The notes beneath the pieces were generated by a model. That model worked only from the letters and a program-made list of their open reading frames with translations. It made no database searches and was not told the DNA's origin. From positions 1-47,248 of the forward strand of contig CALWTY010000014.1 of assembly GCA_944384585.1 (NCBI GenBank): a stretch of 47,248 bases of DNA. Reading direction: 5' to 3'. A program made the translations under genes and the position numbers. Below are positions 12,798 to 45,721 of the stretch, in pieces (position 1 is the first letter of the stretch; the number at the start of each line of letters is the position of its first letter). Source of the DNA: an uncultured Clostridia bacterium. Lineage in GTDB: Bacteria > Bacillota > Clostridia > Oscillospirales > CAG-272.

Positions 12798-13457
12798 ATG
12801 GAACTGAAGGGGAAAAAGATCAATTTTCTCGGAGACAGCATCACCCAGGGGGTAGGCGCCTCCTGCCGGGACAACGTCTATCATCAGGTGATGAAGCGGA
12901 AGTTCGGGCTGGCTGAGGCAAGAAACTACGGGGTCAGCGGCACTCGCTATGCGAGACAGCTCGTCCCCACCGCCGAGCCCTGCGACCGTGATTTCTGTGA
13001 GCGCCTGCATCAGATGGACGACGACGCCGATGTTGTCGTCGTGTTCGGCGGCACCAACGACTTCGGACACGGAGACGCGCCGATCGGCACGCCGGAGGAT
13101 CGCGAACCGAATACCTTTTACGGCGCTTGTCACTACATTTATTCCCATCTGACGGAGAAATATCCCGATGCGCTGATCGTTGTGATGACCCCGCTCCATC
13201 GTCGGAACGAGAGCTTCACCGACGGGGATTCTCATCAGAAGGCCTGCCACAGCGGCGATCTCAGACGGTATGTCGGGATCATCCGCGAGGTCGCGGAGTA
13301 TTACAGCCTGCCGGTGCTGGATCTCTATGCCTGCAGCGGCATTCAGCCGAATATTCCGGTGAACTGTGAGCGTTATACCGTCGACGGACTTCATCCGAAC
13401 GATCGGGGGAATGCCCGGATCGCCGATCTGCTCGGCAACTTCCTCCTCCGTTATTGA
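12798..13457 (+). CDS. SGNH/GDSL-family hydrolase
   Basis: 219 residues with GGAGG before the ATG. Block I GDSITQG (12-18) holds the nucleophile Ser, [10 protein letters not shown] is block III, and DGLHPNDRG near the end holds the Asp and His. No signal peptide is seen, so it is probably cytosolic. The family includes esterases and acyl- or acetyl-hydrolases; the substrate cannot be told. It lies 23 bases after tig and is an unusual insertion in the tig/clpP order. Confidence 0.88.
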
Positions 13458-13466
13458 ATCAATATC

Positions 13467-13512
13467 GCGCGGAAGCGCGAAGGCTTTCGTTCTTCGTCTC
13501 CGCGCGCTTTTA
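13467..13512 (+). terminator. Hairpin between SGNH gene and clpP
   Basis: GCGCGGA (13467-13473) pairs with TCCGCGC (13499-13505). A smaller inner hairpin (CGAA/TTCG) and a CTTTTA tail are also present. It ends about 60 bases before the clpP start. Confidence 0.6.
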
Positions 13513-13570
13513 TCCCGGCGAAAGCCGGCTCGCTGCCCGGCGCGTCTGTCCGGGAGAAAGGAACGCGTTT

Positions 13571-14155
13571 ATGCCACTTGTACCAACCGTCATCGAACAG
13601 ACCAACCGAGGGGAGAGGGCGTATGACATCTATTCCCGCCTTCTCAACGACCGTATCGTGTTTCTGGCCGACGAGGTCAACGATGTGACCGCCTCCCTTG
13701 TGGTGGCGCAGCTTCTGTTCCTTGAGGCGCAGGATCCCGATAAGGATATCTGTCTCTATATCAACAGCCCCGGCGGATCGGTCACGGCGGGTCTTGCGAT
13801 TTACGATACCATGAATTATATCAAGTGCGATGTTTCGACGATCTGTATCGGCATGGCAGCCAGCATGGGCGCGTTCCTGCTCTCCTCCGGCGCAAAGGGG
13901 AAGCGTCTGGCGCTTCCGAACAGCGAGATCATGATCCATCAGCCCCTCGGCGGGATGCAGGGGCAGGCGTCGGATATCAAAATCCACGCCGATCATATCC
14001 TCCGCACAAGAGAAACCCTCAATCGGATCCTGGCGGAAAACACCGGGAAGCCCCTGGAGGTGATCGAGCGCGATACCGACCGCGATCACTTCATGTCCGC
14101 TGCCGCCGCTGCGGAGTACGGTCTGATCGACAAGGTCATCGACAAGAGAGCATAA
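13571..14155 (+). CDS. clpP: ATP-dependent Clp protease proteolytic subunit
   Basis: 194 residues, the standard length. The ATG at 13571 has AGAAAGGA upstream; the frame also extends further. The serine-protease triad is Ser98 (MAASMGAF), His123 (MIHQP) and Asp172 (RDTDRD). Conserved [19 protein letters not shown] lies before it. It forms the tetradecameric barrel that degrades proteins fed by ClpX, the product of the next gene 35 bases downstream. Confidence 0.97.
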
Positions 14156-15618: not shown

Positions 15619-16416
15619 ATGAACGATCAATATAAAAGAAAACCGCTCCCGAAACGGGAACGGGAGGATTCCCCCTCCCGTACTCCCTCTTATGTGATCG
15701 GGCGCAATGCGGTCCTCGAGCTGCTGAAGAGCGGCAGGGAAATCGATAAGATTTATATCAAAAAGGGGGAGCGCACCGGCTCGGTGACCGTGATCGCGGC
15801 GGAGGCGGTCAGGAGAGGCATCCCGATTGCGGAGGTAGAGGTCTTTAAGCTGGATGCGATGGCCTGCGGTCAGCCGCATCAGGGAGTCGCAGCTTCTGCG
15901 GCGCTCAAGGACTATGCGTCGATCGACGATATGCTCCGTCTTGCTGAGGAACGGGGGGAGAAGCCGCTTCTTGTGATGGCCGACGGGGTGGAAGACCCGC
16001 AGAATCTCGGCGCGCTGATACGGGCTGCGGAATGCGCCGGCGCTCACGGCGTGATCATCCCCAAGCGGCGGGCGGTCGGTCTGACGGAGGCGGTCGGCAG
16101 AGCCTCCGCCGGCGCAATTGAGCATATGCCGGTGGCTAAAGTGGTCAATCTTGCCCGCACCGTCGAGGAGCTGAAGGAAAAAGGGCTCTGGATTTTTGCG
16201 GCGGAGGTGGGGGGACAGGCTTATTATGACAGCGATTTCCGCTGTCCTGCCGTTCTGATCCTCGGCAGCGAGGGCTTCGGGGTGTCCCGTCTTCTGAAGG
16301 AGAAGAGCGATTTTGTCGTTTCGATCCCGATGTACGGACAGGTCAATTCCCTCAATGTTTCGGCGGCTGCCGCCGTGATTCTCTGCGAAGCGGCGAGACA
16401 GCGCCGAACAGGTTGA
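15619..16416 (+). CDS. rlmB: 23S rRNA (guanosine-2'-O-)-methyltransferase, SpoU family
   Basis: 265 residues with GAAAGG upstream. An N-terminal substrate-binding domain (YVIGRNAVLELLKSG, QPHQGVAA) is followed by the knotted SPOUT domain with DGVEDPQNLGALIRAAECAG, LILGSEGFGVSRLL and IPMYGQVNSLNVSAAAAV, the three SpoU motifs. It methylates a ribose in 23S rRNA using SAM. RlmB and TrmH-like relatives share these motifs; the N-terminal domain favours RlmB. The gene may be cotranscribed with the following 961-residue protein. Confidence 0.9.
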   Translation: MNDQYKRKPLPKREREDSPSRTPSYVIGRNAVLELLKSGREIDKIYIKKGERTGSVTVIAAEAVRRGIPIAEVEVFKLDAMACGQPHQGVAASAALKDYASIDDMLRLAEERGEKPLLVMADGVEDPQNLGALIRAAECAGAHGVIIPKRRAVGLTEAVGRASAGAIEHMPVAKVVNLARTVEELKEKGLWIFAAEVGGQAYYDSDFRCPAVLILGSEGFGVSRLLKEKSDFVVSIPMYGQVNSLNVSAAAAVILCEAARQRRTG

Positions 16417-16444
16417 TATACCGTCGAAAGGAGAGCAAGAGTCG

Positions 16445-19330
16445 ATGGATAACAGGCATGATACCGATATCTCGGCTGACGATCTGATCGCCAAGCTGAA
16501 GGCGAATATCGGGCAGACCGACGATCGGCAGGGCGATCCCGCGCAGGAAGCCGATAGGAAAAAGAGATATAAGTTCAGACGCTCCGATAAAAGCGCCTCC
16601 GCCGTGACGGAGGACGACATTCTTCGTGAAATGCCGGAAAAAAGCGGATCGGGCTTTGTCAGCCCCGTCCCGAAATCCGAGATCGAGGGTCTCGATATCG
16701 ACGAGCTGATGAAAAAATACCTCCCGGAGAAGGAATATGAGCGGCTCTCGAAAAAGAAAGAGCCTGCCGACCGGAAGGGCGAGGAGGAATTTGTCAGAAC
16801 CCTGACCTCCCCGGAACGGGTGGCGGAAGATCGGGAGGAGTCCGCCGCTTCCGACGGCCAATCCCCTTCGGAGACGGAACGCTACGTCTACAAGGAAGGG
16901 TCGGAGGACTATACCGCGCCCGACGAGGCGCTCTTCACGACGCTCAGCGACGGAGGAAAGGTCTGCGATATTCCGGGAGAAGACGATCAGAGCGCCGAAA
17001 CCATCACCCGGGAGCCTGTCCGCGCCGGGAGCGGGGAGGCGGGGCAGACGCATGTCTTTTCCGCGCCGACCCTTCGGCAGCACGGCGGTGAGGAGAGGGG
17101 ACCGGCGACCGACGACGGAGCTGCGGCACCTTCCGCTCGCGTGAACGACGGCGTGACGACGGATTCCCCCGAACACGAAATGGTGCGGGCGGAGGCCGAC
17201 GAGGAGCTGCCGTCCGGAGAGAATGCGGATCTGACGAGGGTCATGCCCCCTGTCGGGGGCGGATCGGAGGCATCGGAAAAAACGATCGTTCTCCCCGCCG
17301 TGACCGACGGGGAGGGTTCGGCTCTCCGGGACGCGGAGGAGAACGCTCCTCCCGCCGCCGACGACCGGGAAGACGGAGCGCCGGAGAAAAACGGCGACGG
17401 GGAAATGCCTGCCGTCGGCGCTGCCGCCGCGGAGGAAGACAGTCCCGCCTTTGACGAGACCGATGCCAATCTCATGATCGCCTTCGGTATGGACGACGAG
17501 CTGGAAAAGGCGATGGGGAAGGAAAACGCAGACAAGCTGCGCTCCGATATCGAAAACCTCTATCCCGACGAGCCGGCTAAGCCGAAAAAGCAGCGGGAGG
17601 AGAGAAAGCGCCCCGTCAGGGAATACATCTCTCCCGTCGAGACCAAGGAGATCATGGAGAATTACAAGACCGCTTTCGGGAAGAATGCCCTTGCGCTCTT
17701 CGCGACGGCTGCCGTCGTCATGATTCTCTTCTTCTACGAAAATATCCCTGCCCTCGGCGGCACCTTGCCCGACGCCGTCAATCCCGCTTACTATCCTGCG
17801 GTCAATGTTCTGGTAGGGCTTCAGCTTTTGTTCCTCGGATTTGCGGTGAATTTCAGAAGCCTCGTCCGCGGCGTGGAGGGTCTGCTGGATCGGAAGCCCG
17901 TTCCCGAGAGCTTTTTGCCGCTGATCCTTCTGGTGCATATTCTGTATTCGGTTGCCGTCTGCTTTTTTGAGGCCGGAACCGTCCCGCTTTCCTTCGCCTT
18001 CCCCTCCTCGGTCTGCCTGCTGCTGACGGCGCTGAACGAGAGGATGAACCTGCGCCGGGAGATCATGACCTTCAATATCATATCCTCCAAGCGCACGAAA
18101 TTTGCGCTTGAGAAGCTGGAGCTGGATGACGCAGAGCTGGAATCCAAGGCATTCGATGAGTTCCTGCCCAAGCAGCCTTCGGTCTTTAAGATCAATAAGA
18201 CTGCCTTCATCGACGGCTATTTCCGCCGGACGGGGCAGTATCCCACCATCAAATATGTGCTGAAGGCATTCCTTCCCGTCTCGGCGGCCGTGATCGTCGC
18301 CGCCTTTACCTTCGGGCTTCTCTTCCTGAAGGATTGGCAGAGCGCCGTGATGCTCAGCTATACCGCCTTCTTCTTCACCCTCCCCGGTACGGTCTTTATC
18401 ACCTTCGGGCTTCCCGCCTTCCGCGCGGCAAAGCTGGCGTTTGCCGATCACAGCGCCTTTGTGGGGGAGGCGGCCCTTGACGAGTATACCTCCGCCGGTT
18501 CGATCTCCTTTGACGACCGCGAGGTCTTTCCGACCGGCGGCGTCAAGCTCCGCAGCGTGAAGGTCTTCGGAAGCGGTCGGATCGATATGGTCATCTACCA
18601 TGTCGCCAGCGTCTACTCTCTGCTCGGCGGCCCGCTCTCCGACGTGCTTCATGTAGCAACCGCCGATCTCGGCGTTTCGGAGGACGTGGAGATCCTCGCG
18701 ATCGAAAACGAGGGCGTGGAGGCGGTTGTCGACGGACGGCATCTCTATCTCGGAAAGGCCGATTTTCTCCGCAAAAAGGGCTATGTCCCGGTTTCCGATC
18801 CCGACGACGAAGACATTGCCGAGAGCGGCGAGATCAGCATGATGTTCCTGGTCTGCGACGACGAGGTGGTCGCCAAGCTGTATCTGCGGTATCGGATCGA
18901 TCCGGGATTTGAGGTGACGCTGAAGCGGCTGTATAAATCGGGGATCTGCGTCGGCATCAAGACCGTTGACCCCAACATCAACGACGAGATGCTCGGCACC
19001 AAGATCAAGCTGACGAAATATCCCGTCCGCGTTCTCAAATACAGCGATGTTTCGGAGAGCAGACGGGGGAGCGACAGAACCGACAGCGGAATCGTCTCGA
19101 AAAAATCCGCCAAAGCCCTGCTGCGCATCTTCACGCTCTGCGACAAGATCAAGCATGTGACGAAGGCCAACATCGCTGTCAATATCATCACGATGATCAC
19201 CGGCTGCATCATCTGCGGCGCGGTCGCAATTCTCGGAAATCCCGCCGGCGTAACCTCCCTGTACATGGCGCTCTTCCAGCTCTTCTGGATCATCCCCCTG
19301 TACCTGATGTCAAAATTCATGCTTCTGTAA
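16445..19330 (+). CDS. P-type-ATPase-like membrane protein with degenerate catalytic motifs
   Basis: 961 residues. About 390 N-terminal residues are acidic, low in hydrophobics and probably disordered. Membrane segments lie near 412-432, 448-470, 489-509, 515-532, 605-628 and 633-655, and a final pair near 907-955. The order after residue 540 follows a P-type ATPase: an actuator-like part, a helix pair, then SISFDDREVF (686-695) where the phosphorylation motif DKTGT should be. Next comes ENEGVEAVVDGRHLYLG (754-770), like the nucleotide domain, and GIKTVDPNINDEML where TGDN is expected. The GDGxNDxP motif is missing. Catalysis is therefore probably lost; a sensor or scaffold role is a guess. 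A GGAGAGCAAGAG site precedes the ATG. Two hairpins follow the gene. Confidence 0.7.
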   Translation: MDNRHDTDISADDLIAKLKANIGQTDDRQGDPAQEADRKKRYKFRRSDKSASAVTEDDILREMPEKSGSGFVSPVPKSEIEGLDIDELMKKYLPEKEYERLSKKKEPADRKGEEEFVRTLTSPERVAEDREESAASDGQSPSETERYVYKEGSEDYTAPDEALFTTLSDGGKVCDIPGEDDQSAETITREPVRAGSGEAGQTHVFSAPTLRQHGGEERGPATDDGAAAPSARVNDGVTTDSPEHEMVRAEADEELPSGENADLTRVMPPVGGGSEASEKTIVLPAVTDGEGSALRDAEENAPPAADDREDGAPEKNGDGEMPAVGAAAAEEDSPAFDETDANLMIAFGMDDELEKAMGKENADKLRSDIENLYPDEPAKPKKQREERKRPVREYISPVETKEIMENYKTAFGKNALALFATAAVVMILFFYENIPALGGTLPDAVNPAYYPAVNVLVGLQLLFLGFAVNFRSLVRGVEGLLDRKPVPESFLPLILLVHILYSVAVCFFEAGTVPLSFAFPSSVCLLLTALNERMNLRREIMTFNIISSKRTKFALEKLELDDAELESKAFDEFLPKQPSVFKINKTAFIDGYFRRTGQYPTIKYVLKAFLPVSAAVIVAAFTFGLLFLKDWQSAVMLSYTAFFFTLPGTVFITFGLPAFRAAKLAFADHSAFVGEAALDEYTSAGSISFDDREVFPTGGVKLRSVKVFGSGRIDMVIYHVASVYSLLGGPLSDVLHVATADLGVSEDVEILAIENEGVEAVVDGRHLYLGKADFLRKKGYVPVSDPDDEDIAESGEISMMFLVCDDEVVAKLYLRYRIDPGFEVTLKRLYKSGICVGIKTVDPNINDEMLGTKIKLTKYPVRVLKYSDVSESRRGSDRTDSGIVSKKSAKALLRIFTLCDKIKHVTKANIAVNIITMITGCIICGAVAILGNPAGVTSLYMALFQLFWIIPLYLMSKFMLL

Positions 19331-19470: not shown

Positions 19471-21333
19471 ATGAAGGATCATGAAATGAGAAGAATACTG
19501 AAGCAGGTTCTCAAGCCGGGACGCTACACCGGCGGGGAATACGGCCAGGTAATCAAGGACAAGGACAAGGTCAAGGCGCGCTTCGCCTTCTGCTTCCCCG
19601 ATACCTATGAGATCGGGATGTCCAATCTCGGGGTGCGGCTGCTCTACGGTGTGCTGAACCGCGAGGAGGATATCTGGTGCGAGAGAGTCTATGCTCCGTG
19701 GGTGGATATGGAGCAGCAGATGCGGGAGAACGGTATCGGGCTTTTCGCCCACGAGAGCCGCGATCCCGTGCGGGATTTTGATATCGTCGGCTTTACGCTG
19801 CAGTATGAGCTGTGCTACACCAACGTTCTCAATATGCTGGAACTTGCCGACATCCCGCTGCTCAGCAAAGACAGGGGAGAGGACTGCCCGATCGTGGTCG
19901 GGGGAGGCCCCTGCGCCTATAATGCCGAGCCGGTGGCCGATTTCTTTGACGTCTTCAGCATCGGGGAGGGGGAGGAGGCGCTGGTCGAAATGACCCGCCT
20001 CTATATCAACATGAAGGAATCGGGCACCTATACGAGGAAGGAGTTCCTCCGCCGCCTTGCCGCCGTTCCGGGCTTTTATGTTCCGTCCCTGTACCGCGTC
20101 GATTACCGGGAGGATGGCACGATCGCTGCCTATACCCCCCTTTACGACGATATTCCGAAGCGGATCACCAAGCGGATCATCCGCGATATGGACAAGGCTT
20201 ATTTTCCCGACCGCCCGGTGATGCCTTATATCGAAACGGTGCATGACCGCATTGTTCTTGAGGTCTACCGCGGCTGTATCCGCGGCTGCCGCTTCTGTCA
20301 GGCGGGCATCATCTTCCGCCCCGTCCGGGAAAAATCGCCGGAGGTGCTGGACGCTCAGGCGAAATGCCTGTTCGAGAATACCGGATATGACGAAATCTCC
20401 CTTTCCTCGCTGAGCATCAGCGATTATTCCGAGCTGACAAAGCTGACGGATCTGCTGCTGCAATGGACCGAGGAATCGAAGGTAAGCCTCAGCCTCCCCT
20501 CCCTCCGGATCGACAGCTTCACCAAGGAGCTGATGGAAAAAATCTCGACCGTCCGCACCGGCGGGCTGACCTTCGCGCCGGAGGCCGGCACACAGCGGCT
20601 CCGCGACGCCATCAACAAGAATGTCTGCGAGGAGGATCTGATGCGCGCCTGCCGCACCGCCTTTGAGGCGGGGAAAAGCTCGGTCAAGCTCTATTTTATG
20701 AACGGGCTTCCTACCGAGACGCTTGAGGACATCGAGGGGATCGCGGTGCTTGCCAAGGCGGTTGACCGCGAGTACTATCCGCTCTCCCCCCGCCCGAAAG
20801 GAAAGCCGCCGATGGTCACCGTCAGCGTCTCCTGCTTCGTCCCCAAGCCCTTCACCCCCTTCCAATGGGAGGGACAGGATACGCTTGAGATGCTGGTGGA
20901 GAAGCAGAATCATCTCAGAGACTGTCTGAGAGGGGAGAAGCATATCCGCTACAATTGGCATGAGGCCAAGGTGAGCCGGATCGAGGCGGTCTTTGCAAGA
21001 GGAGACAGACGGCTGTCCGCCGCCCTGCTGGAGGCGCATCGGATGGGGATCAAATTCGACGGCTGGGACGAATTCTTCGACTATGACAAGTGGATGGAGG
21101 CGTTTTCCGGAGCAGGGATCGATCCGTCGTTCTACGCGAACCGTCATTTTTCCGTCGATGAAATTCTTCCGTGGGAGATCATCGACTGCGGGGTCAGCAG
21201 GGAATTCTTCCTGCGGGAGCGCGCCAAGGCCTATCGCTCGGAAACGACTCCCAACTGCCGTGAGCATTGCTCCGGCTGCGGCGCAAATAAGCTCGGAGGT
21301 GTCAGGTCATGCTGCCCAGGTCTGTCAGACTGA
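19471..21333 (+). CDS. TIGR03960 family B12-binding radical SAM protein
   Basis: 620 residues. An N-terminal Rossmann-like B12-binding domain (about 30-200, with CFPDTYEIGMSNLG and VVGGGPCAYNAEP) precedes the radical SAM core. Cys269, Cys273 and Cys276 form the CxxxCxxC cluster site (YRGCIRGCRFCQAG). A C-terminal part ends in REHCSGCGANKLGG, a CxxC-containing tail. Members always sit beside or are fused to a DUF2344 (TIGR03936) protein, as here. Radical chemistry is expected; the substrate is not established, though RNA-related roles are often suggested. Confidence 0.92.
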   Translation: MKDHEMRRILKQVLKPGRYTGGEYGQVIKDKDKVKARFAFCFPDTYEIGMSNLGVRLLYGVLNREEDIWCERVYAPWVDMEQQMRENGIGLFAHESRDPVRDFDIVGFTLQYELCYTNVLNMLELADIPLLSKDRGEDCPIVVGGGPCAYNAEPVADFFDVFSIGEGEEALVEMTRLYINMKESGTYTRKEFLRRLAAVPGFYVPSLYRVDYREDGTIAAYTPLYDDIPKRITKRIIRDMDKAYFPDRPVMPYIETVHDRIVLEVYRGCIRGCRFCQAGIIFRPVREKSPEVLDAQAKCLFENTGYDEISLSSLSISDYSELTKLTDLLLQWTEESKVSLSLPSLRIDSFTKELMEKISTVRTGGLTFAPEAGTQRLRDAINKNVCEEDLMRACRTAFEAGKSSVKLYFMNGLPTETLEDIEGIAVLAKAVDREYYPLSPRPKGKPPMVTVSVSCFVPKPFTPFQWEGQDTLEMLVEKQNHLRDCLRGEKHIRYNWHEAKVSRIEAVFARGDRRLSAALLEAHRMGIKFDGWDEFFDYDKWMEAFSGAGIDPSFYANRHFSVDEILPWEIIDCGVSREFFLRERAKAYRSETTPNCREHCSGCGANKLGGVRSCCPGLSD

Positions 21334-31184: not shown

Positions 31185-31371
31185 TGCGGAGTCGGCGCTT
31201 CTTTCAGGAGAACCGTCGAAATGCTCATCCTTAATATGACCACGGCGCAGGATGGCGTTCAGATCGCCTGCGATCCCGGAGCACGGAGGAATGTCCGCGG
31301 ATGCTTCTTCGGACGCTGGCGGGAAGGATCCCATCCGAATCCGAATACAATTTAGAAGGAGAATAGCAACC

Positions 31372-32853
31372 ATGAAAAAACTATCGGCGCTCTTACTTGC
31401 CCTGATCATGCTGTTGGCGGTAGCGGCTTGCGTCAAGCAGCCTGCCAAGAATCCGACCGGCACGACCGGAGGCGCGCAGACCGATGACGGAGAGGAATAT
31501 GACAACAATGGCTTCCTCAAGGATGACCTTCCGAGCCTGAACTATAACGGGCAGGCTTTCAGAATCCTGTATCCTGCGGAAACCGTCAACGAATTCTTCT
31601 GTGAAGATCCCGGCAACGACATCGTCGACGAGGCGGTGTATACCGCGAATCGCCGTGTCATGGATCGTCTCGGCATCACCTTTGAGGTGACTACCCTGAA
31701 CGGAATCAATGTGCCGGCAGACCGCGACAGTTATGCCCAGACGGTCATCAACACCTATTCCGGCGGCGACGATCGCTGGGATGTGGTCGCACAGCATATC
31801 GGATCGATGGCGACGACGATGGTCAGCGGTGCGTTTATCGATATCAATACCGTCGATTATATCGATCTGGAAAAGCCGTGGTGGCTTGCCCGCCTGACGG
31901 AGGATGCTACCGTGAACGGACGCCTGTATCTTGTCGCCGGCGACGCCTCCCTCTCTCTGCTGAAAAACACCAACTGCCTCTTATACAACAAGCCGCTTGC
32001 CGATGACCTTCAGGTGGAGGATCTGCAGGAGCTTGTGCTCAACGGCGGCTGGACCAAGGAAAAACTGCTGCAGTATACCCGTCATGCCTATATGGCGGCG
32101 GATCAGGCCAATCCCGATATCGCAACCGACCGCTTCGGCTTCGGTCTTCTGAACGATAACCACCTTGAGGCGTTCAAGGCCGCCTTCGATTTCCCGATCC
32201 TCTCCAAGGACAACAGCGGGGAATTCGTCTTCACCTACGACAGCGAGCGTGCCGTTGACGCCTGCGAATGGCTTGTCAGCTTCGCCAATTCCGATAACAG
32301 CGTCTACCTTGCGAGAACCAGCGCGGATGTTAAGGCGGCCCAGGATGCCTTCCGTGAGAAGAGAATGCTCTTCGTTTCCGGTACCTTCAGCTTCGCAATC
32401 GACATCTTCAATGACATCAACGAGGACTTCAACGTGATCCCGCTTCCGAAGTGGTCGGAGGACGAGGAGTATTCCACTCTGCCGAGAGGAACCTATTTCG
32501 GATTCGGCATCATGAGAACCACGCCTCACTATGATTTTGCCGGCGCGGTTCTGGAGGCAATCGGCTCTGAGGGCTACCGTCATATCGCTCCCGAATATTT
32601 CGAGCGTGCGCTGAAGGTGAAGTACACCGACGCGAGCGAGAACACCAAGGAAATCTTCGACCTGATCAGAAATTCCGTCATCTATGACTTCGGCTATACC
32701 TTCTCCCCCTTCTTCGGTCTTGACGGCGCGATCAAGCAGCTTGTGTACGCCAATCTTCCCAACTGGACCTCGCTGATCAATTCGCAGAAGGATAAATTCA
32801 TGACCAACCTAGACGATTTCATCTCCCGGGTCTCCAAGCTGGAGGATGAATGA
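31372..32853 (+). CDS. Extracellular solute-binding lipoprotein (ABC-type)
   Basis: 493 residues starting at the ATG at 31372, with AGAAGGAG in front. The signal peptide MKKLSALLLALIMLLAVAAC ends in a lipobox (VAAC, Cys20). The mature part resembles family 1 sugar-binding proteins (DIVDEAVYTANRRVMDRLGI, FNVIPLPKW). No permease or ATPase gene is in view, so uptake would need subunits coded elsewhere, or the protein only captures glycan fragments at the surface. It is part of the same-strand series. Confidence 0.82.
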   Translation: MKKLSALLLALIMLLAVAACVKQPAKNPTGTTGGAQTDDGEEYDNNGFLKDDLPSLNYNGQAFRILYPAETVNEFFCEDPGNDIVDEAVYTANRRVMDRLGITFEVTTLNGINVPADRDSYAQTVINTYSGGDDRWDVVAQHIGSMATTMVSGAFIDINTVDYIDLEKPWWLARLTEDATVNGRLYLVAGDASLSLLKNTNCLLYNKPLADDLQVEDLQELVLNGGWTKEKLLQYTRHAYMAADQANPDIATDRFGFGLLNDNHLEAFKAAFDFPILSKDNSGEFVFTYDSERAVDACEWLVSFANSDNSVYLARTSADVKAAQDAFREKRMLFVSGTFSFAIDIFNDINEDFNVIPLPKWSEDEEYSTLPRGTYFGFGIMRTTPHYDFAGAVLEAIGSEGYRHIAPEYFERALKVKYTDASENTKEIFDLIRNSVIYDFGYTFSPFFGLDGAIKQLVYANLPNWTSLINSQKDKFMTNLDDFISRVSKLEDE

Positions 32854-32869
32854 GAGATCGGGGAGCGAC

Positions 32870-33889
32870 ATGAAACAAAGCTTCAAAAATAAATTGGTTC
32901 GTGCTTTGCTGCTCGGGCTGACCGTCACGGCGCTCGGCTCCTGCGCCTCGACCCCCGGAGGAGGAGAGACCTCCTCCTCCGGGCTCAAGCCCGGCGAAAC
33001 GGGAGGGGTTGCTTCCTCCGGGGCTTCCACGGAGCAGCCCGACCCGTCGGAGGGGAAGGCCAAGGTGATTATTCTCGCCGGCCAGTCCAACGCGGTCGGA
33101 CAGAGTTACTGCAATTTCCTGAATCGTCAGACCTTTACGGAGGATCGGTATCGGGTGGCGGAAGCCGGATATCCCGACACCATGATTGCCTACAACGTCA
33201 ATCCCTTTACCGATCGCCCGGTTTTCTGCGGCGACTTTGTCAATGTGAAATTCGGACAGGGAAGGGAAACGATCGATAAGCAGTATATCTCCTTCGGGCC
33301 GGAAATCGGGATCGCGGAATATCTCTCGGAGGCATTCCCCGGAGAAACCTTTTACATCATCAAATCCGCAACGGGCGGAACCGATCTCTACGATCGCTGG
33401 AATCCCACCCGCAAGGCCGACAACAACCTCTATCACAATATGGTGGGCTTTGTCGGAGACAGCCTGAAAAAGCTGGAGGAGGAGGGACTGACGCCCGAAA
33501 TCATCGCGTTCTGCTGGATGCAGGGGGAATCGGATTCCGGGATCGTCGGGAAGAGAAATCAGTATGAGTATCTCTTCACCCGCCTGATCTCCGATTTCAA
33601 AAAGACCTTTGCTGAGTATCTGCCTGAAACGGGGATGTCGGTGATCCAGCCCGGAATCACGAGCGTGTGGAATTCCTATGCCGATTTGAATGCGATCAAG
33701 AGCGGGATGGCGAAGAGGTCGAACAAGTGGTACTATTTTGAAACCACGGATCTCAAGACGGGAACCGACCCCAACTCCGACCCCTATCATTATGTCGCGG
33801 ACGATATGATTATCCTCGGCAGACGATTCGGGGAATATATTCAAAAGGTAATCGGGACTCTGGGCGTCCCGGAGGTCACCGAATCATGA
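32870..33889 (+). CDS. Sialate O-acetylesterase-like (SASA) lipoprotein
   Basis: 339 residues with GGGGAGCG upstream; an ATG at 32846 inside the previous gene is less likely. A signal peptide with a lipobox-like LGSC (Cys23) is followed by a Gly/Ser-rich linker. The SGNH-like core starts with VIILAGQSNAVGQSY (Ser nucleophile), continues with WMQGESDS, and reaches DPYHYVADDM near the end, the likely Asp/His. Such esterases remove acetyl groups from sialic acid or xylan-type sugars. The nearby GH43 genes make plant xylan or arabinoxylan a more likely target; this is an inference. Confidence 0.82.
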   Translation: MKQSFKNKLVRALLLGLTVTALGSCASTPGGGETSSSGLKPGETGGVASSGASTEQPDPSEGKAKVIILAGQSNAVGQSYCNFLNRQTFTEDRYRVAEAGYPDTMIAYNVNPFTDRPVFCGDFVNVKFGQGRETIDKQYISFGPEIGIAEYLSEAFPGETFYIIKSATGGTDLYDRWNPTRKADNNLYHNMVGFVGDSLKKLEEEGLTPEIIAFCWMQGESDSGIVGKRNQYEYLFTRLISDFKKTFAEYLPETGMSVIQPGITSVWNSYADLNAIKSGMAKRSNKWYYFETTDLKTGTDPNSDPYHYVADDMIILGRRFGEYIQKVIGTLGVPEVTES

Positions 33890-33956
33890 CAGGAGCTTCC
33901 GGCTTCCGCCGGCATATGCTCTGACCAAATCGTCGAAAGACGGAAAAGAGGAATAT

Positions 33957-35255
33957 ATGAACAAAAAAATTCTTGCCCTTTTGATTACAAGCCTTTCGCT
34001 GCTGCTTGTTTTGCTGGTGTTTCCCCTTGCAGGCAATGCGGAAGGCCGCACCGTCGTCTATCTGACGGACGGCGGCGCAGGAACGAAGGACGGCAGCTCC
34101 GCGGAGAATGCGGCGGGCAGTCTGTCCGAGGCGCTTTCGCTTCTTGATCTGACGCAGGACTGTACCGTCGTTGTCTGCGGCCCTGTCTTCCTGTGGGACG
34201 AATGGGACTACGGCGTTGATTACACGGGATCGGTTACCTTTACTTCGGTTTATGATAAGGTGGACTGGCGCTCCGTCAACGACGCAGGTTTAAATTTTAT
34301 GTTTATAAACTTCGTCCTTCGCGGCGCTACGAACTTTGAATATATCAAATTCAATTGCGTCAGCGGCACCGGCGGAGTTCATATCAACTGCGGCTTCAAT
34401 CCTCTGACCATCGGGTACGGCGTTGAGGTGTCAGGCGATCAGCTCACCGGTCTTTCCGACAGCAAGTCGATCTTTATCGTCGGCGGCTATCAGCAGGGAC
34501 GCGGCGACTATGCCGAGGGTGTGAGCAGCACCGAAAAGAACGTCGATATCAAATGCTATTCCGGCACCAATATCCTGATCAACGTCTGGTCGCGCGGTAC
34601 CATGAACGAGGAGTACACCGGCGAGGCGAATGTCGTGATCGGCGGCGATGCCAACATCGGCTCGATCTTTGTTGCCGGTCTGAAAACCCAGAACAGTATG
34701 TACGGCAAGACCAATATCACCGTCGAGGGCAACGCGACCGTCCAGAATATCTACAGCAGCGCTTCCGTCACCGCGACGGTTCAGGCGCTGAATGTCAACT
34801 GGTACGGCGGCTCGCTGCTGTCCTGTCTCGATAATCTCCGCGAGGACGAGAATGTGGTGACCTATACCGAGGGCAAGAACCTCTTTGCCTCCGCCGCTGC
34901 CAAAGCGACCGAGAACTACTCCGCCGTTGCCGCATTCTTCACCTCCGAGAAGGAGGTCACCGCCCCCGAAACGACTCCCCACACGCCCCCTGTCATTGAA
35001 GTGACCCAGACCGAGCCCCCTGTCACCGAGCCTCCTGTTTCCGACACGAAGCCTGATGACGAGACGAAGCCCGACGAAACGACTGAGCCTGCCTCTTCCG
35101 GCACGACGCCCTCCGGCGATGTAACGACAAGCGGCACTTCGTCGCCTTCGGAGCCTTCTTCCTCCCCCGTTATGCTGATTGTCGGGATTGTGGCGGTTGT
35201 CGTGATCGCCGCGGTCGTTGTGGTCATTGTGATTGCCAAGAAAAAGAAGAAATAA
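33957..35255 (+). CDS. Secreted beta-helix-like surface protein with C-terminal membrane anchor
   Basis: 432 residues with AAGAGGAAT upstream. The signal peptide ends near residue 28 (AGNAEG). The next stretch VVYLTDGGAGTKDGSS resembles the N-cap of right-handed beta-helix (DUF1565-like) domains. Gly/Asn-rich strands continue to about 330. A Pro/Thr/Glu-rich linker follows, then a membrane helix and KKKKK, without LPXTG. The linker and anchor are almost identical at DNA level to those of the next gene. Carbohydrate binding is a guess from the fold. Confidence 0.72.
   Translation: MNKKILALLITSLSLLLVLLVFPLAGNAEGRTVVYLTDGGAGTKDGSSAENAAGSLSEALSLLDLTQDCTVVVCGPVFLWDEWDYGVDYTGSVTFTSVYDKVDWRSVNDAGLNFMFINFVLRGATNFEYIKFNCVSGTGGVHINCGFNPLTIGYGVEVSGDQLTGLSDSKSIFIVGGYQQGRGDYAEGVSSTEKNVDIKCYSGTNILINVWSRGTMNEEYTGEANVVIGGDANIGSIFVAGLKTQNSMYGKTNITVEGNATVQNIYSSASVTATVQALNVNWYGGSLLSCLDNLREDENVVTYTEGKNLFASAAAKATENYSAVAAFFTSEKEVTAPETTPHTPPVIEVTQTEPPVTEPPVSDTKPDDETKPDETTEPASSGTTPSGDVTTSGTSSPSEPSSSPVMLIVGIVAVVVIAAVVVVIVIAKKKKK
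35010..35255 (+). repeat. Linker/anchor module, copy 1
   Basis: Aligned without gaps to 36384-36629 (offset 1374). It is identical over 95 bases (35050-35144) and more diverged in the membrane-helix part. The beta-helix parts of the two genes are not alike at this level. Confidence 0.85.
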
Positions 35256-35309
35256 TTCGCACGGATGATTTCACCGTTTGGTGAAAAACTACTATTTGGG
35301 AGGTTTACC

Positions 35310-36629
35310 ATGAAAAAAACACTGAGTTTGATCATTGCAATCGTCATGGTCGCTGCCATGGCAGTTTTCCCCGTATCGGCAGCTTCCGCTGATCTTTACG
35401 TCAAGGCCGGAGGAACGGGAGACGGATCTTCCGAGAGCAATGCGTTCGGTTCTTTGACGGATGCGTATAATGCCGCCGCTGCCATGACGGAGGATGTTAC
35501 CATTCATGTGGTCGGAACGCTCGACATCCAGATGGCGGAGTCGGTCGGCAGCGCCGATACCTTTATCGCGCCGGAGCATGCCAACACCATCACCATCACC
35601 GGCGGCAAGCTGAACGACATTCAACCGAAGGGCTGGTTCTGGGTTCTCGGCGGCAAGACCGTCATCGATAACACCGAGATTGCTACCGCCAACGGCATCT
35701 TCTTCATCACCGACTTCTATGATTTCACGGTGGGAACCGGCGTAACGACGACCGGTAAGATCAGCGTCGGCGCGACCGCCGCCAATTCCTCCCGCCATCT
35801 TGACATCTTTACGAAAACCTATACCGGCAACGCCAGAATCACGCTTCTCTCCGGCACCTACGGCGATGTGTCGATCATGCGTCAGAATTCCAAGGGCGTC
35901 GTGATCAACGGCTCCTCCATCATCACCATCGGCGGAACGGCTGTGGTCGATAATCTCGTGACGGCGCGCAATATGCTCGCGACGATCGAGAACTCCACGA
36001 TTATTCTGGACGGCGGAAAGGTCAACCGCTTCGTCGGTAACTGCGACAGAGCTGCCGCGAATCTGACCGCTCCCACCTATGTCTCCGGTGCAACCGGCAC
36101 CTTCAAGGTCATTGTGACCAAGAACTTCAAGATCGCAGATTCCTTCAATCAGGAAAACGGCTCCACCTTCTTCGGAATCTCCGGCGTGACCGCTGCGACC
36201 ATTGCGGAGGCCGATCAGGAAACGCTGATCGGTAAGGCGGAATATATTCTGCAGATCGCGCCCGAGGTCTATGACGAGGTAACCGCTGCCGCCGATAAGG
36301 TGCAGACCATCTCCTTTGACTCCGTTGTGAACAAAACGCACACCGCAGAGGATGAGCAGCTGCCCGAAATCGAGCCTCCGGTGACCGAGCCCCCTGCCAC
36401 CGAGCCTCCTGTTTCCGACACGCAGCCTGATGACGAGACGAAGCCCGACGAAACGACTGAGCCTGCCTCTTCCGGCACGACGCCCTCCGGCGATGTAACG
36501 ACAAGCGGCACTTCGTCGTCTCAGGAGCCTTCTTCCTCTCCTGTTATGCTGATTGTCGGGATCGCAACGGTTGTCGTTGTGATTGCGGCGGTTGTGATCA
36601 TTGTGGTCGCCAAGAAAAAGAAAAAGTAA
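35310..36629 (+). CDS. Secreted beta-helix-like surface protein with C-terminal membrane anchor (paralogue pair)
   Basis: 439 residues starting at the ATG at 35310 with GGGAGG ahead. The signal peptide MKKTLSLIIAIVMVAAMAVF... ends near residue 25. DLYVKAGGTGDGSS begins the helix-type domain; HSNTITITGGKLND-like and VINGSSIITIGG-like strands recur. A Pro/Thr/Glu linker, a membrane segment and KKKKK end it. It is closely similar, along the whole helix domain, to the product of 40595-41752. No LPXTG is present. The role is unknown. Confidence 0.72.
   Translation: MKKTLSLIIAIVMVAAMAVFPVSAASADLYVKAGGTGDGSSESNAFGSLTDAYNAAAAMTEDVTIHVVGTLDIQMAESVGSADTFIAPEHANTITITGGKLNDIQPKGWFWVLGGKTVIDNTEIATANGIFFITDFYDFTVGTGVTTTGKISVGATAANSSRHLDIFTKTYTGNARITLLSGTYGDVSIMRQNSKGVVINGSSIITIGGTAVVDNLVTARNMLATIENSTIILDGGKVNRFVGNCDRAAANLTAPTYVSGATGTFKVIVTKNFKIADSFNQENGSTFFGISGVTAATIAEADQETLIGKAEYILQIAPEVYDEVTAAADKVQTISFDSVVNKTHTAEDEQLPEIEPPVTEPPATEPPVSDTQPDDETKPDETTEPASSGTTPSGDVTTSGTSSSQEPSSSPVMLIVGIATVVVVIAAVVIIVVAKKKKK
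36384..36629 (+). repeat. Linker/anchor module, copy 2
   Basis: See copy 1 at 35010-35255. The identical run is at 36424-36518 in this copy. Confidence 0.85.
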
Positions 36630-36642
36630 AGAATAGGAACAG

Positions 36643-39600
36643 ATGAATCAAATAAGGTACACTCATATAAACAACAACTGCCCCGAACGGGCAGGCAAAA
36701 AGCGTATCTTTATGCTGATTGCCGCCGTCCTTGCCGCCGTTCTTACGGCGGCCGGGATGTTCTTCACCGTTTCGGCACAGGAAGATACCGTTTATCTTGA
36801 TGCGGCGGGGGGAAATGACGCAAATGACGGCTTTTCCGCTTCGACCGCCAAGAAGACCCTGAATGCCGCCATCCGGGCGTTGTCCGATCGGGACGGTACG
36901 ATCCTGCTTCTTTCCGATTATACCGTCAGCGGCGAATACACCGAGCCCTCCCATCGGGGAACGATCACCATTTCCTCCGGGCGGAGCGGTGCGGAGCTGA
37001 TCCTCGCTGCCTCTTCCGTCTATCGGATGCAGGGACCGATGATCTGGGACGATATGACCGTTCAATGCAGCGGAACGACGGTTCTTGCAGCACAGTTCAA
37101 CCGGATCGAGTTCGGGGAAGACCTGACGATATCCGGCGGACTGAGCAGCTTATTCGTCAACGGAGGCTATGAAAAGCCCTCCTCCAAAAATCTTCCCGTC
37201 AACCGCGATTCCAACATCGTGATCAACGGCGGCGAGTTCCGCTCGGTCTGCGGCTTTACCCGTACCAAAGGCGTTGCGACCGCCTATTACACCGGCGTTT
37301 CCAACATCACCGTCAACGGCGGTAGGATCGCCGCGCTCTTCGGAGGCCCGCTCTACAATCATGCCGGCGGAAGCACCGTCATCACGGTCAACGACGGTAC
37401 GATCGACGAGCTGAATACCGGAGGCGATGTCACAAGACGCCTTGACGGCTCCGCTGCCGTGATCCTGAACGGCGGTGGCGTCGGTAAACTTAACATCAAC
37501 AACGTCATCGGCGATGCGTCCGTCGAATTCAACGGCGGCTCATTCAACAGCGTCGCAATCACCTACGGCAACGATACGCTCAAGGAATCGGCACAGAATG
37601 CCGGCTCGGTCAAAACCGCAAAGTACAATCTTCTTCGCTACACCGAGCAGCAGATCCGCAGCATCATCGAGCTGTTTGACAGCACCGAAAACCGAACCGT
37701 TGTCCGTGTTTCGGGCAGCGGAGCGGGAGAGCCCGGCACGGTTGCCACCCTGCAGGAGGCGTTCTCGCTTCTGAAGGTGGCGGGCGGCGAGATCCTTGTA
37801 AGCGGCAGAGTCCGCTGCGAGGCGGGCGTGCTGCCGGAAGCCGGCGGGCCGATCACCGTTTCGGGTGACGGAACGGCGGAGCTGGTCTTCGGCCCGACGG
37901 GAGAGATGACCTTCTCCTCCCCAGTCGTGCTTCGCAATCTTGCCATTGTTTCGCAGGGGACGCTGACGGTGAAGAGCCTCGGCTCTCTGACGGCGGAAAA
38001 GGATGTCACCGTGGAAGGCATCGTCAACCTTGACATTGCCTCCGACAAAGGCAAGCTGACACTGGCCGGCGGACAGTATGCCGGGATCACGCTTTCCGGC
38101 AAGGAGACGGAGGTCTTGGTGGAAGGCGCGAAGATTGCATCGATCGGCGGTTCCCCCGCTCTCTTCACCATGACGGAGGGGGAGCTGACGGAGGTTTCGC
38201 TGACCGCCGGCGAGGGGGCGATCTATCGTCTCTTCGGCGGGGAAATCGGCAAGCTGACGCTGTCGGGCGGCGCATTTACGCTTTATCTCGGCAACGCCGC
38301 GATCGCAGAATATGACGGATCGGGACTGACCGGGGATGCCTCCTCGCGCACCCTGCTCAAGGGTCGGAATGCATCGGAAGCGGCGGCTGCTCTCTTCGGA
38401 AGCGGCTTCGGCAGCGTGAGTGAGGCCAATCTCGTGTATCTTGCCGACGGCGGCAAGGGCGACGGTTCGTCTCCCTACTCGCCGCTCGGAAGCCTCAGCG
38501 ATGCCATCAAGGCTCTCGGCGGGGACGGCAGAGTCGTTCTCTGCGGCGACTACACTCATACGACCATGCGCACCACGCTCTACGACTACAAGCTCACCCT
38601 GTCGGCAAACGACGGTATGACGACCTATGACGCTTCGCTGCGCATGAATGCTTCTCTGTCGTTCGGCGGGGAAACGCTGATCGAAAAACTCCGATTCGCG
38701 GTTGCCAAGTCTGATGTGACGATCTACGGCATGGGGCATCCGCTGACCATCGGAGAGGGGGTAAGTACCATCCTTGAAAAGGGTAACACCTCCTATATCA
38801 ACCTCTGCGGCGGCAGTGCCGACGCAAACGTCAAAACCGATATTTCCCTCACCGTGTCAAGCGGGGAGTGGGGATGGCTCAGAGGCGGATCGGTCAATTC
38901 CGGCGCTGTCACCATGAACAGCCAGAAGGTCTCAATTGTGATCAACGGGGGCAGCTTCCGCCGCTATGTGGCGCTCTCCGCCTACGGATATTCCTACGGT
39001 TCGGCCTCGCTGATCGTCAACGGCGGTACCTTCTACGGCGGAATCTACGGGGTCATGTCCGACACCGAGCTGAGCCACAGCATTGATTGGGATTTCACCA
39101 TCGAGCTGAATGACGGAACTGTCTACTTCCAGATCGCGCCGGCGCTTCAGCGCTCCACGCAGCTCAGAGGCAGCTATAAGGTCATTCTCAACGGCGGGGA
39201 TTATTCCCATCTGACCGATCTTCTCGGCGCAGAGAAGTTCGCCGGCAATATGACCTCCGAGCTTGTCGTCGGGGACGGCGTCGATCTCACTGCCAAGGAG
39301 ACCGGAGAGATCGATTTCACAAACTACCTCCGTCCCGGCGCCGACCCGTGGCTCTTTACCCACGACGGGTACTACTACTACGCCGCGACGGGCGGCATCC
39401 TCCACAAGGTTGCGAATCTTGCGGATCTGGCCTATTCCACAGGCTACAAGATCTATAACCCCGTTCGGGGCACGCCTTACGGCCACCGGATGTGGTCTCC
39501 CGAGATTCACTACTTCTCCGCCGAGGAGGTCGGGGAGGAGTATGCCGGCTGGTATCTCTTCATCTGCTGTGACGACGGCAGCGTGGAGACGACGGAAAAG

Positions 39601-40548
39601 CTGCGCGCCTATGTGCTGAAGTGCCTTGACGGAGACGATCTGCTCGGTCGTTGGGGACACCCCATCACCGGCGAGGTCAACGTTCCCGTTCAGATGTACA
39701 ACGAGGACGATCCGTCCGTCAACAACAATAACGCCCTCTTCGGCGGAATGTCGGTTGTCCGGATCGACGGCGTGCCGTACATCACCTTCATCTCGGAGGT
39801 GGGACGCGGAACTGCCGATTACTATCAGACCATCAGCATCACGCGGATGAAAACGCCCTGGATCATGTACGGCGAATCGACGGTCATCTGTAAGCCGGAA
39901 TATGATTGGGAAAAGGGCGGCTACGGCAAAGCCGAGAACGAGGACAAGTGGTGGCCGATGGTGGTGGAGGGAAGCACCGCTGTCTACGGAGACAACGGTG
40001 AGGTCTTCATCGTCTATTCCGGAAGCGGCTATTGGACGACCGAGTATAATCTCGCGCTCCTCACCTATACCGGCGGCGATCCCCTTTCGGCGTCGAGCTG
40101 GAAAAAGGCGACCAAGCCCTTCCTGTACAAGTCCGACAGCATCAACGGCTGCGGACACGCCTCCTATATCACCGACGTTGACGGACAGCGCTGGGTTTGC
40201 TATCATGCCTATACCGGCAGAGATACCTCCAGCGGACGGTTCATCTTCGTTGAGCCCTACACCATCGACAAAAACGGTCTGACGGTCGGAAACGGAAGCG
40301 GACATCCCAATGACATCGATACCGTCTACACGGTCAACGTCAATCCGAAGTCCCTTTCCGAGAAGATCGACGGCTTTGTTGCCGAGCCCGAGAAGCCCGC
40401 CGAAAGCGGAAGCGACTCTGTCTCGGAGAGCGAGCCCACCGCCGACAGCGATAACGGCACGGTGCTGTTTATCGTGATCTGTGCGGTGATCGCGGTGGCT
40501 GCCATCGGCGCTGTCGCCTTTGTCCTGCTGAGCGGGAAGAAAAAATGA
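36643..40548 (+). CDS. Giant surface protein: beta-helix regions fused to a GH43-like domain
   Basis: 1301 residues. A signal or membrane segment lies at about 22-44. Two beta-helix N-cap-like sequences occur, TVYLDAAGGNDANDGF (about 49) and LVYLADGGKGDGSS (597), each followed by repeated NGG-rich strands. From about 890 a GH43-like propeller is read: Asp901 (GADPWLF) and Glu1109 (VVEGSTAV) match catalytic positions, but the second Asp is replaced (LFGGMSVV, Gly1034, where the lipoprotein has IDGTVM). A linker, a membrane helix (about 1273-1295) and KKK end it. It could be a surface binder or a weakened enzyme. It is 13 bases after the preceding gene. Confidence 0.72.
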   Translation: MNQIRYTHINNNCPERAGKKRIFMLIAAVLAAVLTAAGMFFTVSAQEDTVYLDAAGGNDANDGFSASTAKKTLNAAIRALSDRDGTILLLSDYTVSGEYTEPSHRGTITISSGRSGAELILAASSVYRMQGPMIWDDMTVQCSGTTVLAAQFNRIEFGEDLTISGGLSSLFVNGGYEKPSSKNLPVNRDSNIVINGGEFRSVCGFTRTKGVATAYYTGVSNITVNGGRIAALFGGPLYNHAGGSTVITVNDGTIDELNTGGDVTRRLDGSAAVILNGGGVGKLNINNVIGDASVEFNGGSFNSVAITYGNDTLKESAQNAGSVKTAKYNLLRYTEQQIRSIIELFDSTENRTVVRVSGSGAGEPGTVATLQEAFSLLKVAGGEILVSGRVRCEAGVLPEAGGPITVSGDGTAELVFGPTGEMTFSSPVVLRNLAIVSQGTLTVKSLGSLTAEKDVTVEGIVNLDIASDKGKLTLAGGQYAGITLSGKETEVLVEGAKIASIGGSPALFTMTEGELTEVSLTAGEGAIYRLFGGEIGKLTLSGGAFTLYLGNAAIAEYDGSGLTGDASSRTLLKGRNASEAAAALFGSGFGSVSEANLVYLADGGKGDGSSPYSPLGSLSDAIKALGGDGRVVLCGDYTHTTMRTTLYDYKLTLSANDGMTTYDASLRMNASLSFGGETLIEKLRFAVAKSDVTIYGMGHPLTIGEGVSTILEKGNTSYINLCGGSADANVKTDISLTVSSGEWGWLRGGSVNSGAVTMNSQKVSIVINGGSFRRYVALSAYGYSYGSASLIVNGGTFYGGIYGVMSDTELSHSIDWDFTIELNDGTVYFQIAPALQRSTQLRGSYKVILNGGDYSHLTDLLGAEKFAGNMTSELVVGDGVDLTAKETGEIDFTNYLRPGADPWLFTHDGYYYYAATGGILHKVANLADLAYSTGYKIYNPVRGTPYGHRMWSPEIHYFSAEEVGEEYAGWYLFICCDDGSVETTEKLRAYVLKCLDGDDLLGRWGHPITGEVNVPVQMYNEDDPSVNNNNALFGGMSVVRIDGVPYITFISEVGRGTADYYQTISITRMKTPWIMYGESTVICKPEYDWEKGGYGKAENEDKWWPMVVEGSTAVYGDNGEVFIVYSGSGYWTTEYNLALLTYTGGDPLSASSWKKATKPFLYKSDSINGCGHASYITDVDGQRWVCYHAYTGRDTSSGRFIFVEPYTIDKNGLTVGNGSGHPNDIDTVYTVNVNPKSLSEKIDGFVAEPEKPAESGSDSVSESEPTADSDNGTVLFIVICAVIAVAAIGAVAFVLLSGKKK

Positions 40549-44598: not shown

Positions 44599-45697
44599 GT
44601 TTTTTTACTTCATTATATATCAAAAAATCTGCATTTTTTATGGCAAAACTGCCGAAATTTTCGGAGAGTTGTCTTCTTTTGACCCGATCACGGAGGAGGG
44701 AATCGACGGTGTCGGAGAGCAGAGCGCCGTGAAGCTCCTTTTCCTCAAGCATGACGACGGCGTCTGCGTCGGCAAGCACCTTGGCATTTTTGTACTGATG
44801 ATTATCGGTGACGTTCGGGGAGGGGATGAGGATCGCCGCCTTTTTCAGCATCGCAAGCTCCGAGATGGTCATCGCGCCGGCGCGGTTGATGACGAGATCG
44901 GCGGCTGCCAGACGGAGCGGCATATCGTAGATGTAATCGACAAGCGACAGGTTCGGGAAGCGGTCAAGCCCCAATCGCTGAAATTCCGCCCGCACCGCCG
45001 GATAATTGCCGACGCCCGCCTGATGAAGATGGTGGAGCTCCGGATGGGCGGAGGAATAGTCCGCCATCATGCGAAGGACCTCCTCGTTGATCTTCTCCGC
45101 GCCGAGGCTGCCGCCGCAGGAGAGGATGGAATAGCGGTAGCACCCCTCAAAGCCGAGGCGTTCCCTCGCTTCCTCGTGGGAGATCCCGGAAAATTCGTTC
45201 TTCAGCGGATTTCCGACATGAACGATCCTCTTGCAGCCCGGAAGCTGCGCGGCGGTCTCCTTGAAGTTGGTGAAGACGATGTCGACCTGACGGGAGAGCA
45301 TTTTGACGGCGACACCCGCCAGTGCATTCGATTCGTGAAGCGCCGTCGGGATCTTCATCTCGGTGGCTGCGCGGATGAGAGGCCAGCAGACATAGCCGCC
45401 CGTTCCGATGGCGATATCGGGGCGGAATTCCCGGATCAGTTTTTTGGCCTTTCCGACCGAGGTCAGCATCAGCTGCAGGGTTTTGAGATTGGAGAGGGAG
45501 AGGCTTCTCTTCAGTCCCCTCATCTCGATGTGATACAGCCGGAAGCCCTCCTTCGGGACAAGGCGGTTCTCCATGCCGCGGGAGGTGCCGACAAACGCGA
45601 TCTCGGAGTCGGGCTCGTAGCGAAGAATCGTTTTGGCAATGGCGATTGCCGGATTGATATGGCCTCCGGTTCCGCCTCCGGTCATGAGTACACGCAT
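44576..45697 (-). CDS. murG: UDP-GlcNAc:lipid I N-acetylglucosaminyltransferase
   Basis: 373 residues. The start MTGGGTGGHINPAIAIA holds the glycine loop GGGTGGH (7-13). IAIGTGGYVCWPLIRAA, HESNALAGVAVKML, CGGSLGAEKINE and INRAGAMTISEL are diagnostic motifs. It adds GlcNAc to lipid I, making lipid II at the inner membrane face. It lies 24 bases after ftsW, so the two are probably cotranscribed. Confidence 0.97.
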   Translation of the reverse strand: MRVLMTGGGTGGHINPAIAIAKTILRYEPDSEIAFVGTSRGMENRLVPKEGFRLYHIEMRGLKRSLSLSNLKTLQLMLTSVGKAKKLIREFRPDIAIGTGGYVCWPLIRAATEMKIPTALHESNALAGVAVKMLSRQVDIVFTNFKETAAQLPGCKRIVHVGNPLKNEFSGISHEEARERLGFEGCYRYSILSCGGSLGAEKINEEVLRMMADYSSAHPELHHLHQAGVGNYPAVRAEFQRLGLDRFPNLSLVDYIYDMPLRLAAADLVINRAGAMTISELAMLKKAAILIPSPNVTDNHQYKNAKVLADADAVVMLEEKELHGALLSDTVDSLLRDRVKRRQLSENFGSFAIKNADFLIYNEVKKLVNPLKM

Positions 45698-45721
45698 TGT
45701 CGGGCTCCTTTCGGCAGGGAT

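Follow-up and report, generated by a model that had tools for sequence, protein, structure and literature searches.

A probable pseudo-P1B-type ATPase with an acidic tail, kept across one order of Clostridia

What does a protein do that is built like a P-type ATPase but has none of the signatures by which such pumps work? The question is raised by a 961-residue ORF in the 47,248-nucleotide stretch of clostridial DNA analysed here (the window). Read from its letters alone, the ORF had been described in a first-pass annotation as a degenerate, catalytically dead P-type relative used as a sensor, adaptor or carrier. It is a real gene, present as a single copy in its genome and running over the coordinates given in Table 1 without an internal stop; a 934-aa minus-strand ORF that overlaps it (16352-19156) was taken as a shadow frame.

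The P1B-type body and its altered motifs

Single-sequence searches place the protein only loosely: it has no match in Pfam, its NCBIfam matches are all sub-threshold heavy-metal P-type ATPase models (TIGR01525, ATPase-IB_hvy, E 4e-6 for the single protein, at 26 bits under a curated cut-off of 346 bits), and a PDB search reached Cu-ATPases at E ~2e-3. TIGR01525 is likewise matched weakly by 64/78 family members, and an Rfam search of the window returned nothing. Profiles and structure prediction are far clearer. AlphaFold2 modelled residues 386-961 from 78 sequences with pLDDT 93.7 and pTM 0.88, the best Foldseek match of this core was LpCopA (4bbj, E 5.7e-16), and the best 12 rows of VIA-align were all P1B pumps, headed by LpCopA 3rfu (Z 22.3, 474 residues aligned). 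The family profile found the LpCopA sequence at E 3.4e-10, and a profile-profile comparison (hhalign) with ten intact P1B pumps gave E 9.6e-39 over 550 columns. That alignment spans helices MA through M6 and so puts the beginning of the P-type body near residue 397; the body holds all eight membrane helices of a P1B pump together with the A, P and N domains, and residues ~397-961 are a full-length homologue of the P1B heavy-metal P-type ATPases. Thus the P-type order of helices and soluble parts read earlier from the letters is borne out by homology and fold, but its start at residue 540 is not. In a tree the split between this family and other P-type ATPases has support 1.0 on a branch of length ~1.0. 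Resemblance to P-type ATPases on this scale goes well past what chance would give.

Table 1. Positions of the gene, its parts and its neighbours in the window
Feature	Position	Strand	Remarks
rlmB (23S rRNA Gm2251 methyltransferase)	15619..16416	+	upstream, 28 bp away; TIGR00186 8.5e-67
Pseudo-P-type ATPase gene	16445..19330	+	961 aa, whole ORF including stop
Acidic cytoplasmic tail, residues 1-390	16445..17614	+	mostly disordered; 24.6% D/E, net charge -44
Tail motif 1, DISADDLIAKLKAN, residues 8-21	16466..16507	+	predicted helix 11-23; form conserved across order
Tail motif 2, GLDIDELMKKYLPEKEY, residues 82-98	16688..16738	+	predicted helices 85-103
Tail motif 3, FDETDANLMIAFGMDDELEKAMG, residues 336-358	17450..17518	+	predicted helices 338-372; subset of members
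First four membrane helices, residues 397-546	17633..18082	+	MA, MB, M1, M2 of P1B pumps; AlphaFold2, hhalign
Shrunken A domain, residues 549-600	18089..18244	+	TGE phosphatase loop absent; 71 aa in this region, P1B 136
M3 and M4, residues 601-667	18245..18445	+	L-P647-G in place of CPC; prolines 647, 657 conserved
SISFDDREVFP, residues 686-696	18500..18532	+	DKTGT site; family motif D691-x-x-x-F695-P696; D690 in catalytic Asp column
N-domain-like region, residues 713-816	18581..18892	+	G728-G729-P-L replaces SEHP; glycines 757/764/770 kept
P domain, second half, residues 820-888	18902..19108	+	lacks ~34 aa bearing GDGxND
T840-V-D842-P-N-I845	18962..18979	+	TGD site
M5 and M6, residues 889-961	19109..19327	+	P1B YN and MxxSS positions replaced; Q945-x-x-W948 conserved
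TIGR03960 B12-binding radical SAM protein	19471..21333	+	downstream; part of order only

The established P-type mechanism requires KTGT, TGE, GDGxND and SEHP for the handling of Mg/ATP and for dephosphorylation, and in every member examined each of these has been changed or deleted. The motifs quoted in the first-pass annotation are as it had them (SISFDDREVF at 686-695, TVDPN at 840-844, GDGxND absent). In both profile alignments the catalytic Asp of DKTGT is paired with D690 and its Lys with D691; the motif reads DDREV here and is absent from all family rows searched, so that a local sequence error in this one protein is refuted. What the family has at this site is D-x-x-x-F-P: in the order-wide set the catalytic Asp position itself varies (690 is D in 11/39 rows), with 691 being D in 35/39, F695 kept in 32/39 and P696 in 30/39. 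At the TGD site, T-x-D-P-N, the Thr and Asp survive as T-V-D, and order-wide the reading is mostly T/S-x-D, with D842 in 38/39. In the N domain x-G-G-P-L stands in place of SEHP and Y816 occupies the position of an invariant P1B Asp, while the TGE loop of the A domain falls in a gap of the profile alignment (stray TGE tripeptides occur in some members, none of them in the window protein's core). The metal site has gone as well, with CPC in M4 changed to x-P-x and both YN in M5 and MxxSS in M6 replaced.

Spacing between motifs was compared in 46 members and 10 P1B pumps. The DKTGT and TGD sites lie as far apart in the family as in pumps (median 153 vs 154.5 aa). The A-domain region, however, is 71 aa long against 136 in pumps, and from TGD to M5, the part that bears GDGxND in pumps, there are 55.5 aa against 89. 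About 65 and 34 aa, respectively, are missing in 46/46 members, and aligned in this way the two losses look like shared, ancient deletions.

Distribution, selection and the acidic tail

A relative was found in 58/59 related genomes from 24 families of the window's order, nearly always as one full-length copy. Our first alignment of fetched loci had 55 rows. A further 80 loci, all metagenome-assembled and mostly named Clostridia, Clostridiales or Oscillospiraceae, came from an alignment-based scan through named genomes; since that scan is biased by its own [GCA][IV][KR]TxDPNI pattern, the order-wide statistics rest on a broad profile (A3). With it, 144 of the 148 order genomes of at least 95% completeness carry a single match with an E value of at most 1e-50, and ~750 genomes outside the order, drawn evenly as class and phylum samples, gave nothing better than 1.4e-39. 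These outside matches are partial and cover the part of the profile that P1B pumps also match; twelve of the loci were fetched and proved to be P1B pumps with DKTGT, TGE, CPC, SEHP, TGD and GDGxND intact. The two P1B pumps of the window genome have these motifs intact as well, save that no SEHP was found in one of the two. In these samples, then, the family is confined to one order and nearly universal in it. Peptide-pattern scans of genome and viral contigs with the single protein found nothing. One clostridial family locus, with rlmB and TIGR03960 beside it, sits under the name 'Candidatus Colimorpha enterica' (L081, JAGHTD010000015.1), a genus of Bacteroidales in the NCBI taxonomy; it is probably mislabelled or from a mixed bin.

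Within close pairs dN/dS is 0.03-0.07, indicating strong purifying selection and hence a maintained protein. The residues that stand in for the catalytic motifs are themselves conserved, and so are the prolines of M4 (P647 in 33/39 and P657 in 30/39 order-wide) and two residues of M6 (Q945 in 26/39, W948 in 35/39), from which we take the membrane core to be still constrained. Taken as a whole this pattern speaks against decay and in favour of a new function taken up at the former active face. 'Degenerate' was therefore apt as to the dead active site but understates the case, because motifs replaced and then conserved order-wide are the mark of a repurposed family.

The ~390 acidic residues noted ahead of the core are indeed there, and the charge is concentrated in them (net -44 in the tail vs -1 in the core). 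Across the family these tails run from a few dozen to more than 800 residues, with a median of 28% acidic. An EM motif finder applied to 105 non-redundant tails returned a helix-like N-terminal motif with a score of 762 (186-192 for shuffled tails), which reads DISADDLIAKL in the window protein and SDKFSLDDILEEY in distant members; the second motif is DIDELMKKYLPE and the third, confined to part of the order, TDxNLMxAFGM. In the full-length model the tail is disordered save for predicted helices at these three sites and two short ones. Conservation and predicted helicity together suggest that the motifs are putative docking motifs. Several distant members have the N-terminal one in weak form or not at all, and four loci (L033, L180-L182) have just 24 to 45 residues ahead of the core profile, so not every member needs a long tail.

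In the genomes scanned by pattern, the N-terminal motif was almost private to this family, and we rejected the idea of a widespread targeting tag on that ground. We did observe an ABC-2 export permease (L195, G402:C1 near 2266700) that opens with the same motif, SDKFSIDDILAEIG, in a disordered-looking extension; since homologous permeases in other genomes lack that extension, we infer no pathway from it.

Related systems and a proposed role

Pseudoenzymes are well known among the kinases and phosphatases. Among P-type ATPases the FUPA families comprise functionally uncharacterised members whose substrate is unknown; our family is like them in being P-type-related with an unknown substrate, but FUPA members generally keep DKTGT and ours do not. 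With the P1B ATPases (LpCopA 3rfu/4bbj, ATP7B, ZntA, CopB) it shares eight helices in the same order, the A/P/N layout, the glycine pattern of the N domain and the DKTGT-to-TGD spacing, but it lacks DKTGT, TGE, GDGxND, SEHP and CPC, its A domain is halved, ~34 aa of its P domain are deleted and a long acidic tail takes the place of metal-binding domains. Judged by the features that define P1B ATPases it is not one of them, although the two share their descent. A limited search of open-access literature found no description of a bacterial pseudo-P-type ATPase. Going by its published description, the nearest analogue we found may be human TMEM94/ERMA, for which one study detected neither ATPase activity nor phosphorylation (PMC12134183), although others hold it to be an ER Mg2+ ATPase (PMC13322241) and its status is disputed. 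Both have a P-type-like body without the TGES loop; however, TMEM94 is eukaryotic, is nearest to SPCA and not to P1B pumps, and has ten helices (PMC12134183) against the eight predicted in the bacterial, P1B-derived family.

We conclude that the protein is almost certainly a pseudo-P1B-type ATPase and, to judge by its motifs, very probably runs no pump cycle. As nearly every member of the order keeps exactly one copy with conserved features of its own, it probably has a new, non-pumping job. The explanation that we favour overall, at a probability of roughly 0.55, is descent from an ancient P1B metal pump that gave up its ATP-driven phosphorylation cycle and stayed on as an order-wide core protein, a pseudo-P-type ATPase serving as a membrane sensor or scaffold with a docking tail. 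The eight-helix body would be embedded in the membrane, either fixed or switched by a ligand. The former catalytic face (D691/F695-P696, Y816 and T840-x-D842-P-N), whose residues should be spatial neighbours if they lie as their P1B equivalents do, might bind a partner domain or ligand or lock one conformation, acting without phosphoryl transfer; D690 and D691 leave an Asp near the catalytic site and may thus permit some unusual residual chemistry. The disordered acidic tail would work as a fishing line, the helix motif near its N-terminus docking a cytoplasmic partner at the membrane. We put forward this more specific picture, of an adaptor or sensor anchored in the membrane whose tail helix holds a partner and whose gene is a single-copy core gene of one Clostridia order, more tentatively, giving it slightly less than an even chance. 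Among the roles first suggested (sensor, adaptor or carrier), the conserved docking-type motifs favour the adaptor or sensor, but a metal carrier is disfavoured by the loss of every P1B metal-site motif.

If an order-wide, single-copy and strongly conserved dead pump is what we have here, the P-type fold has been retained for a task other than active transport, and such a family would help in reading the disputed TMEM94/ERMA case. The gene would in addition be a functional target in a gut-bacterial order where it is close to universal, and it is a caution to annotation pipelines that assign weak 'heavy metal ATPase' matches to such proteins.

Alternative readings and the gene neighbourhood

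The rival that survives best, though we consider it unlikely, is a passive channel, facilitator or carrier of lipids or small molecules, in which the path along the M4 kink is kept and ATP is unused. It would account for the conserved M4 prolines and M6 Gln and Trp, and it recalls TMEM94, which is P-type-like and holds a lipid near M4 (PMC12134183); however, the P1B metal ligands in CPC, YN and MxxSS are replaced, the polar membrane residues E432 (20/39) and Q460 (15/39) are not conserved order-wide, and a conserved tail motif is left unexplained.

Two readings that we regard as improbable, to about the same degree, name a partner. In the first the protein is a regulatory subunit of an active P1B ATPase, that is, the inactive member of a heteromer. 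Its own genome does encode two such pumps with intact catalytic motifs, but P1B pumps are near-universal, which makes their co-occurrence uninformative, and the conserved neighbours include no recurring pump gene.

The neighbour that does recur is rlmB, and the second of these readings gives the protein a role linked to translation, for example in tethering a step of ribosome assembly to the membrane. Upstream on the same strand in 43/45 loci (the next ORF in 41, one ORF further away in 2) and at a median gap of 50 bp, rlmB is likely to be co-transcribed with the family gene. Moreover, the four order genomes that lack the family gene (G850, G858, G864 and G342, two of them of one genus) also lack a good RlmB match, with only distant paralogues in two. 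We rejected this joint absence as proof of functional coupling, since with the genes adjacent it is inseparable from a single deletion or assembly gap; in addition, the genes are unlinked in one genome (G036), RlmB is general and, to our knowledge, needs no membrane partner elsewhere. Downstream the genes vary, with TIGR03960/TIGR03936 radical SAM proteins in one part of the order and an EF-G-like GTPase, so labelled by reading its sequence, in another.

A working pump with divergent catalysis, phosphorylated at D690 or D691, is very unlikely. The window protein does have D690 at the catalytic Asp, the T and D of TGD survive and D691 is well conserved, but the Asp at 690 is a minority residue order-wide and KTGT, TGE, GDGxND and SEHP, needed by the established mechanism, are all gone. 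The idea that the gene is a pseudogene in decay, or that sequencing or assembly went wrong, has nothing beyond the altered motifs to recommend it and is negligible as an explanation, being refuted by the recurrence of the same motifs in genomes assembled independently and drawn from more than 20 families, by order-wide conservation and by the low dN/dS in close pairs.

Elsewhere in the window, Pfam gives no match at 1e-5 for four long + strand ORFs within 31252-36629 and 44669-47062 (beginning at 31252, 33957, 35265 and 44669); in a 1301-aa ORF that lies between them, at 36643-40548, a GH43 domain sits close to the C-terminus. The ClpP frame at 13454-14155 (+) begins ~39 codons ahead of its family match, and its true start is probably internal.
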